64,000 bases of DNA from an uncultured Erythrobacter sp. GTDB taxonomy: Bacteria > Pseudomonadota > Alphaproteobacteria > Sphingomonadales > Sphingomonadaceae. The notes below the pieces were generated by a model. That model did no database searches and was not told where the DNA came from. It saw only the letters and a list, made by a program, of their open reading frames with translations. Position numbers and translations under genes: made by a program. Where the stretch lies: contig CANLVN010000002.1 of assembly GCA_947494705.1 (NCBI GenBank), positions 806,001-870,000 on the forward strand. Direction: 5' to 3'. This document shows positions 53,153-55,316 of the stretch, one piece after another. Each line of letters begins with the position of its first letter. Position 1 is the first letter of the stretch.

Positions 53153-54556
53153 TCAGCTCTCGAGCTGACGCAGCAGGCTGCGCACATCGCCGTCCATATC
53201 GGCATCGCGCTGGCGCAGGTCCTCGATCAGGCGAACCGCGTGGATAACCGTCGAATGGTCGCGCCCGCCGAACTTGCGTCCGATTTCCGGGTAGGAGCGC
53301 GGGGTCAGGACCTTTGACAGGTACATCGCCACCTGACGCGGGCGAACCACTGCGCGCGCACGCCGCTTGGAGGACATTTCCGACCGATCGATACGGTAGA
53401 ACTGGCAGACTGTGCGCTGGATCTCGTCGATCGTGATCCGGCGACGGTTGGCCGAAAGGATATCGGTGAGCTGCTCCTCTGCGAGTTGCAGCGACACTTC
53501 CTGACCTGTCAGCTGGGCATAGGCGATCAGCTTGTTGAGGCCGCCGACCAGCTCGCGGATATTGCGCGTGATGGTGCGGGCGAGGAAGTCGATGACGTCC
53601 TCTGGAACCGAAAGCGGTGCAAAGCGCGACAGCTTCGATTCGAGGATCTTCTTGCGCAGTTCGATGTCGGCGGCCTGGATATCGGCAACCAGACCCATCG
53701 ACAGGCGCGAGAGCAGGCGCGGTTCGACACCGTCGAGCGCCTGAGGCGCGCGGTCGGCGGCAAAGACCAGTCGCTTGCCTTCGGCCAGCAGCGCGTCGAT
53801 CGTGTAGAGCAGCTCTTCCTGCGCAGACGCCTTGCCGATGATGAACTGGATGTCGTCCACCAGCAGCAGGTCGAAGCTGCGCAGGCGCGCCTTGAACTCG
53901 ATCATCTGGTTGGCTTTGAGCGCCTGGACGAATTCGACCATGAAGCGCTCGGCCGAGCAGTAGAAGATGCGGGCGCGCGGATGCGCCTGCAGGAAAGCGT
54001 GGCCGATGGCGTGCAGAAGGTGCGTCTTGCCCTGTCCGGTCGCAGCCTTGAGATAAAGGGGCGAGAATTGCGGCTGTTCGGTCGCGGCCATGCGCTGTGC
54101 GGCGTTGCAGGCCAGCACGTTGGCTTCGCCAGTGACAAAGGCGGCAAAGGTCAGCGACGGGTCGAGGCCGACGCTCGACGTGAAACCGGCGTCGCCGATC
54201 GTGCCGGCAGCAACCGCAATCGCGCTCGCACCGTCATTGGCCGGACGGCGACCGTCGTCGATGCGAAGCTCGGGCAGCTGGCGGCGGCCCGGGTGCACCT
54301 GGATGTTCACGCGGCGCACGTCGCTGCGCATGATCTTCCATGCGAGCTGCAGCCGGTCGTGGAAGCGATCCTTGACCCAGTTGGCCGAAAATTCAGTGGG
54401 GAGGAACAGGTCGAGAGTGCCCGATTCCTTGTTGATGCTGCCAACCTGGATCGGCTTGATCCACTGGCTGTGCAATTGATGGCCGAGATCTTTTCTGAGC
54501 CCCTGGCTGATATCGGCCCAGTCCGCCGCCAGGTTCACTGCTTCTGCATCTTCCAT
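53153..54556 (-). CDS. dnaA: chromosomal replication initiator DnaA
   Basis: 467 residues. Domain I (DWADISQGLRKDLGHQLHSQWIKP), a short linker, and the AAA+ domain III with FSPLYLKAATGQGKTHLLHAIG and Walker B LLLVDDIQFI. Domain IV has the DnaA signature RPRQVAMYLSKVLTPRSYPEIGRKFGGRDHSTVIHAV. It binds TTATNCACA boxes and opens oriC. The P-loop is AATGQGKT, with Ala where the textbook GGVGLGKT has Gly, a form I associate with sphingomonads. The start is the ATG at 54556, with AGGA nine bases upstream. The ATG at 54610 is an alternative. dnaN is not adjacent. Confidence 0.95.
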   Translation of the reverse strand: MEDAEAVNLAADWADISQGLRKDLGHQLHSQWIKPIQVGSINKESGTLDLFLPTEFSANWVKDRFHDRLQLAWKIMRSDVRRVNIQVHPGRRQLPELRIDDGRRPANDGASAIAVAAGTIGDAGFTSSVGLDPSLTFAAFVTGEANVLACNAAQRMAATEQPQFSPLYLKAATGQGKTHLLHAIGHAFLQAHPRARIFYCSAERFMVEFVQALKANQMIEFKARLRSFDLLLVDDIQFIIGKASAQEELLYTIDALLAEGKRLVFAADRAPQALDGVEPRLLSRLSMGLVADIQAADIELRKKILESKLSRFAPLSVPEDVIDFLARTITRNIRELVGGLNKLIAYAQLTGQEVSLQLAEEQLTDILSANRRRITIDEIQRTVCQFYRIDRSEMSSKRRARAVVRPRQVAMYLSKVLTPRSYPEIGRKFGGRDHSTVIHAVRLIEDLRQRDADMDGDVRSLLRQLES

Positions 54557-54876
54557 TAAGTCATCATCCTGACGGCGCGTTGTCCGCGCCTTATTGTCTT
54601 TGTGCAACATTGAAACCCCACTACTCTCCTGGCTTCGGAATCGATGTTCCGAAGGGCGACTGAACAATGCGGCAGAGGTCAGTTCACCCACCCACGAAAA
54701 GCGTTCCGCGAGGTGCCCCCTGGCTGCTGAAATGTGTGACCTTCAAGCTGTCCCGTCCCGAAGGTGTCTCTTTTAAAGGCTCGAATGAGATCGAGTGCAA
54801 GGCGGGAAATGCAATAAAACCGAAATAATGTTGTTGACTTGCCGCTAGCCCGCAGACTTGCGTTCAAGTCGTTGAA

Positions 54877-54891
54877 TTAATACATTTTTAA
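54877..54891. promoter_or_regulatory. perfect CtrA-consensus site TTAA-N7-TTAA
   Basis: TTAATACATTTTTAA matches the Caulobacter CtrA consensus exactly. It lies 321 bases before the dnaA ATG and 165 bases after the rpsT stop. Binding by this strain's CtrA is inferred from the motif. Confidence 0.6.
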
Positions 54892-54965
54892 TGATTTTCG
54901 CGCGCGAATCGTAGGGATTCCTGACATTCCGCAGGCTGCCAATTGTTGCATCGGTCGCAAATGAA

Positions 54966-54993
54966 AAGGGCCGCGCCAATCGGCACGGCCCTT
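54966..54993 (-). terminator. rho-independent terminator after rpsT
   Basis: On the minus strand AAGGGCCG-TGCC-GATT-GGCG-CGGCCCTTTTC forms an 8-bp outer stem plus three inner pairs and ends in CCCTTTTCATTT. It lies 63 bases after the rpsT stop. Confidence 0.7.
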
Positions 54994-55000
54994 ATCCACA
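54992..55000 (+). promoter_or_regulatory. perfect DnaA box TTATCCACA
   Basis: TTATCCACA is the exact high-affinity DnaA box. It overlaps the outer arm of the rpsT terminator by two bases. A single box here suggests DnaA autoregulation or chance rather than an origin. Confidence 0.5.
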
Positions 55001-55055
55001 ATCGCTTAGCGAAACTACTTAGGAAACGCTCACCGGTCGGTCAGCGAACAGCGAA

Positions 55056-55316
55056 TCAGAGCGCTGCGACTCGCTTCGACAAGCGCGACTTTTTCCGCGC
55101 CACGGTGTTCTTGTGCATCACGCCACGGGCCACGCCGCGGTCGAGTTCGGGCTTGGCAGCCTCGAGAGCAGCCTTGGCGGCTTCCTTGTCACCGGCTTCG
55201 ACAGCGGTCTCGACCTTTTTGACGTGGCTGCGGATGCGGCTCATGCGCGCGCCGTTCACTTCGGCACGGGCGTTGTTGCGACGGATGCGTTTGCGGGCTT
55301 GCGGCGAATTGGCCAT
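55056..55316 (-). CDS. rpsT: 30S ribosomal protein S20
   Basis: 86 residues. [85 protein letters not shown] is a complete S20, a helical 16S rRNA binder of the small subunit. It lies between mutM and dnaA on the same strand, a common alphaproteobacterial order. It has its own terminator and presumably its own promoter in the 158 bases after mutM. Confidence 0.96.

Follow-up and report, generated by a model that had tools for sequence, protein, structure and literature searches.

Upstream of dnaA in an uncultured Erythrobacter sp., we found a near-invariant octamer, CGATTCGC (54904..54911, minus strand), which holds the GANTC at 54906-54910 and fits the extended motif YGAKTCK. Its conservation suggests that this GANTC is probably a real control site, and the reading that we favour, at somewhat better than even confidence, is that the octamer could be a CcrM-methylated, GcrA-read element beside a conserved dnaA promoter, working without CtrA. 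The original prediction, made on the window (the whole stretch of DNA analysed, 64,000 nucleotides), had placed in this intergenic region a combined switch on dnaA, composed of a CtrA box, methylated GANTC sites and a DnaA box. The CcrM/GANTC part of that claim is backed by our analysis, as the 8-mer with the strongest conservation in the spacer holds a GANTC and the genome encodes both CcrM and GcrA. Neither the CtrA-like box nor the DnaA box is under visible selection among the spacers compared.

The rpsT-dnaA spacer and its conserved octamer

The motif region was correctly placed between rpsT and dnaA, both of which lie on the minus strand with rpsT upstream of dnaA. The rpsT gene (30S ribosomal protein S20; 55056..55316, minus strand) is recognised from its open reading frame and from homologues in 146 of 151 relatives. 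For dnaA (53153..54610, minus strand), the likeliest start of the open reading frame is the ATG at 54610 (MLHKDNKARTTRR...), the alternative being 54556 (MEDAEAV...); the first is probably the true one, given that between the two ATGs the alignment of the relatives stays in frame, with a 3-base gap only. The relatives whose DnaA is 90-98% identical to that of the host are Erythrobacter, Qipengyuania, Altererythrobacter and allies. The spacer also holds the rpsT intrinsic terminator (54966..54993, minus strand), predicted by folding as a 12-bp stem followed by a T run and conserved in the alignment; with its flanks this stretch has a fold z of -5.3, and the dnaA 5' leader is no more stable than its shuffles (z = -0.4).

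We located rpsT in genomes at four taxonomic levels, from the genus through the family and order to the class, and collected 244 rpsT-dnaA spacers from genus, family and order, 197 of them distinct: 151 from close relatives and 46 from more distant ones (22 from distant members of the same family, 24 from other families). An aligned set in the Erythrobacteraceae range comprised 150 spacers with DnaA at least 78% identical, for which the changes in each column were counted on the dnaA tree (spacer median 31 per column). All 150 aligned spacers carry a GANTC at the place of the octamer (147 GATTC, three GAGTC), and all 150 carry GAKTCG there. The eight columns have changed only 10 times in total, the lowest count among 261 eight-column windows, against 39 changes in the second-lowest independent window, which falls at the GTCAA element, and 21-63 changes for each of the columns flanking the octamer. 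Conservation in the octamer goes beyond the GANTC itself, since the CG and GC flanks are kept and the third base is restricted to G or T.

The motif YGAKTCK has been described as the extended form of GcrA-activated sites in Caulobacter, while in Brevundimonas there is only a slight flank preference around GANTC (PMC7987155). CGATTCG at 54905-54911 (minus strand) matches it, and YGAKTCK in the dnaA orientation is present in 151/151 spacers of close relatives, 21/22 of distant members of the same family and 23/24 of other families, compared with 37, 7 and 6.5 in shuffles and with 62, 9 and 10 in the reverse orientation. Two further copies lie at the end of rpsT: TGATTCG (55052..55058, minus strand), which includes the rpsT stop codon TGA and has a counterpart in 109 of the 151 close relatives, and, 15 bp before it in the last rpsT codons, CGAGTCG (55067..55073, minus strand), with a counterpart in 80. 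The other families of the order have YGAKTCGC copies mostly just after the rpsT stop, within the first 50 bases after the gene and mostly before the terminator, five times as pairs 22 bp apart (L086-L114). For the class we sampled 28 loci, one of them from the same family and 27 from other orders or families; YGAKTCK was near the rpsT stop (-45 to +110 nt) in only three, so that copies at the rpsT end look confined to this order. YGAKTCGC occurs at 320 places genome-wide, below its reversed control and with no over-representation; what makes the octamer notable is its conservation here, without a genome-wide excess of its sequence.

GANTC sites cluster more densely around the spacer than anywhere else in the window, with seven sites in 768 bp where the window density predicts about 1.0 (P about 1e-4, uncorrected for the choice of region). 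The original prediction had listed four positions, of which 54638, 54906 and 54916 are right and 55043 is wrong, the true site being at 55053; sites at 55068, 55382 and 55401 were missing from it. Over the window as a whole GANTC is depleted about four-fold (86 against 340 in shuffles), and among the 16 palindromes of its kind it is the commonest in the spacers. Depletion together with local density matches the pattern published for CcrM-bearing Alphaproteobacteria, where GANTC is under-represented genome-wide and over-represented between genes (PMC3973325). The GATTC ten bases from the conserved site (54916..54920) is present in 59 of 150 spacers, its columns having 9-33 changes, so the ten-base pairing of 54906 and 54916 is real in this genome and kept in only that minority of relatives. 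The GAATC in the dnaA 5' leader (54638..54642) is not conserved (34-45 changes per column).

A second GANTC, GAGTC in the relatives, lies 70 bp downstream of that in the octamer; it is kept in 132 of 150 spacers and lost here, where its place reads AAGTC (54836..54840, minus strand). Its GTCAA part has no changes at all and its GA 9-10, and two constraints seem to overlap at this place, judging from the column counts. GTCAA belongs to the GTCAA...TATTT element (54823..54838, minus strand; no changes in GTCAA, 1-4 per column in TATTT), which together with a T-rich element stands just upstream of the putative dnaA promoter; TATTT, the T tract and CTTGC, all downstream of the second GANTC place, show strong conservation, and distant Sphingomonadaceae have GTCAA...TATTT...CTTG as well. 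We infer a dnaA promoter of sigma-70 type in CTTGCAC (-35), a 17-bp spacer and TTTAAA (-10) (54772..54801, minus strand), with 0-5 changes in the CTTGC columns; a scan of the spacer with the strict sigma-70 consensus found no promoter. Transcription would start about 150-160 nt upstream of the dnaA start codon, and the octamer would lie about 100 bp upstream of the -35. In the distant Sphingomonadaceae (L235-L268), a GANTC with GA and TC kept and a varying middle base is found about 20-30 bp downstream of the putative dnaA -10, and a TGAC after GTCAA...TATTT forms TGTCA-N20-TGACA inverted repeats in several of them.

The CtrA-like box, the DnaA box and the replication origin

The sequence TTAATACATTTTTAA at 54877-54891 is, as predicted, an exact TTAA-N7-TTAA. 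It is the single copy in the window (0.02 expected in shuffles), and the 3.39 Mb genome holds six copies against 18 of a reversed control pattern. The chance of an exact box in this single 499-bp spacer is 0.6% by shuffling. Among the 197 distinct spacers, the window's own is the only one with the box, where shuffling predicts about 1.4, and in the 150 aligned spacers its TTAA arms have 28-66 changes per column on the dnaA tree, compared with the median of 31. We rejected it as a conserved site on account of this rarity and of its fast-changing arms; it is probably a chance match. CtrA half sites, TTAACCAT, were also considered and occur in the spacers close to shuffle level. The box resembles the CtrA-bound boxes of Alphaproteobacteria in being one exact consensus match in a genome that encodes a CtrA orthologue, and differs from them in being predicted from sequence and absent from 196 other spacers.

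Shared TTAA-N7-TTAA sites can be recognised by such a pattern comparison, for example upstream of a gene for a TPP enzyme. There, between a gene for an MFS transporter and the TPP-enzyme gene, this genome and one relative (G054) have the pattern at the same place (L002 1501-1515, L272 1555-1569), and the 15-mer TTAAGACTTTCTTAA of this site recurs in several relatives. Elsewhere (L003 1501-1547), two TTAA-N7-TTAA boxes stand 32 bp apart with a half site between them, adjoining a transposase-like gene and a gene for a small membrane protein. Upstream of this genome's ccrM (L198 2684-2843), four GANTC sites lie within 160 bp together with a half site (2729), and it is more plausible that CtrA would act in this region than at dnaA.

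The exact DnaA box, TTATCCACA, is likewise present on the plus strand at 54992-55000, where it shares two bases with the edge of the rpsT terminator stem. Shuffling gives a 0.2% chance of an exact box in this 499-bp spacer. Exact boxes occur in 5/151 close relatives and 0/46 others, boxes with one mismatch are about twice as frequent in the close set as in shuffles (18 against 9), and the columns of the box have 37-64 changes each on the dnaA tree. Given the few relatives that share it and its unconserved columns, we rejected the box as a conserved element or as part of an origin, and it too is probably a chance match.

The dnaA gene apparently lies away from the replication origin in this group. 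A published survey states that Sphingomonadales do not conserve a position of dnaA close to the origin (PMC8116508). The distance between hemE and dnaA is about 400 kb in this genome; in dnaA-rotated relatives it is about 450 kb. The original prediction had suggested a GC-skew check for an origin near dnaA. In one complete relative (G078), sampled GC skew, coarse and noisy, switches sign twice, first near hemE at a distance of about 450-600 kb from dnaA and then back near 2.1 Mb; for that relative, the pattern is consistent with an origin close to hemE. A scan for canonical boxes at hemE gave no clear DnaA-box cluster, only one or two boxes with one mismatch. The 20 kb around hemE in the same relative (L288, G078 440001-460000) contain 50 GANTC sites, compared with about 20 in most other samples of that genome, possibly an origin-proximal enrichment.

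CcrM and GcrA as candidate regulators of dnaA

The genome encodes CcrM (64% identity over residues 8-354), GcrA (above the Pfam cut-off) and CtrA (76% identity to that of Caulobacter); the Caulobacter query sequences for CtrA and CcrM were approximate, and so are these two identities. In the mechanism that we propose, CcrM would methylate the GANTC of the octamer late in the cell cycle and a passing replication fork would leave the site hemimethylated. GcrA would read the methylated YGAKTCK and tune RNA polymerase at dnaA, so that dnaA expression would be tied to replication. CtrA and DnaA, acting at the motifs named in the original prediction, would have no conserved part in it. Such a mechanism is compatible with work in Caulobacter, where conserved GANTC sites predict direct control by CcrM (PMC3973325), and with the binding of GcrA orthologues to methylated GANTC (PMC3667746). 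It is of a known kind: conserved GANTC sites upstream of cell-cycle genes have been described, and for Caulobacter there is an earlier proposal that methylation controls dnaA. A limited literature search, which is not proof of absence, found no paper on the rpsT-dnaA spacer of sphingomonads.

The CcrM/GcrA promoters of Caulobacter crescentus (ctrA P1, mipZ, podJ, ftsN) share with our locus a conserved GANTC upstream of a cell-cycle gene, in YGAKTCK form, in a genome with CcrM and GcrA. Unlike them, the site here is a prediction from sequence, and some 100 bp separate it from the putative -35 downstream of it; the Caulobacter GcrA-activated class has its GANTC between -35 and -10 (PMC4287350). 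This distance weakens the GcrA reading, with the proviso that the octamer is put outside a promoter which was itself placed from conservation only. The loss of the second most conserved GANTC in this very genome also counts against the CcrM/GcrA reading. The dnaA promoter region of Caulobacter crescentus is similar in having a GANTC upstream of dnaA for which methylation control was proposed. There, however, the effect is reported as small or absent: promoter activity was not significantly changed by mutation of the putative methylation site (PMC3885167), and a small effect reported in other work is cited in PMC3973325. The octamer here differs in being near-invariant across a family.

The main rival to the CcrM/GcrA reading is that the octamer is the site of another DNA-binding protein, the GANTC in it being incidental or only modulating binding. 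Another reader protein is conceivable because the flanks and the third base are conserved beyond the GANTC: all eight bases are kept, with T as the third base in 147 of 150. The octamer is also far from the putative promoter, and the columns right after it are unconstrained, so that it is not part of a conserved -35/-10 pair. At the same time, it coincides with the published extended GcrA motif, and other GANTC sites of the spacers are conserved too, some with a free middle base; we regard a different protein as unlikely, while giving it serious consideration. The YGAKTCGC copies could instead have their function in RNA, for instance within a small RNA or the 3' end of rpsT, as their position just after the rpsT stop and mostly before the terminator in other families might suggest. 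A match to ar35, an Rfam family of small RNAs, covers the rpsT 3' end and terminator (54959-55076, minus strand) and is the sole Rfam match, but at 28 bits (E = 0.004) it falls below the cut-off of 45 and is probably due to chance. In Erythrobacteraceae and other Sphingomonadaceae, moreover, the conserved copy is located past the rpsT terminator, and the flanks of the octamer are without constraint; a role at the RNA level thus seems very improbable.

We consider it still harder to believe that CtrA, methylated GANTC and DnaA form one switch on dnaA, even as a species-specific gain. The three motifs are each exact matches, the genome has a CtrA orthologue, and the low shuffle chance of an exact CtrA box in this spacer could be held in favour of such a gain. 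Against it, the box in one spacer of 197 is at chance level, its arms and the DnaA-box columns are unconserved, dnaA apparently lies away from the origin (PMC8116508), and ctrA can be lost without a growth defect in Sphingomonas melonis (PMC8116508). The comparison of spacers that the original prediction proposed found the CtrA and DnaA motifs absent, or nearly so, in close relatives, an outcome which it had itself named as speaking against the switch. The case illustrates how, of three motifs found together between two genes, one can be a real signal and the other two can be there by chance.

For the CcrM/GcrA reading, one site retained in about 150 genomes offers a precise base to mutate (54906-54910), and with CtrA dispensable for growth in the one sphingomonad species studied, effects of methylation could be separated from those of CtrA. 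We tentatively hypothesise, as a doubtful but possible extension, that dnaA of the Sphingomonadales may be clocked directly by CcrM methylation and GcrA through an order-wide YGAKTCGC, without CtrA. If this were true, the link from methylation to dnaA that is disputed in Caulobacter would form the conserved core in a group able to dispense with CtrA.
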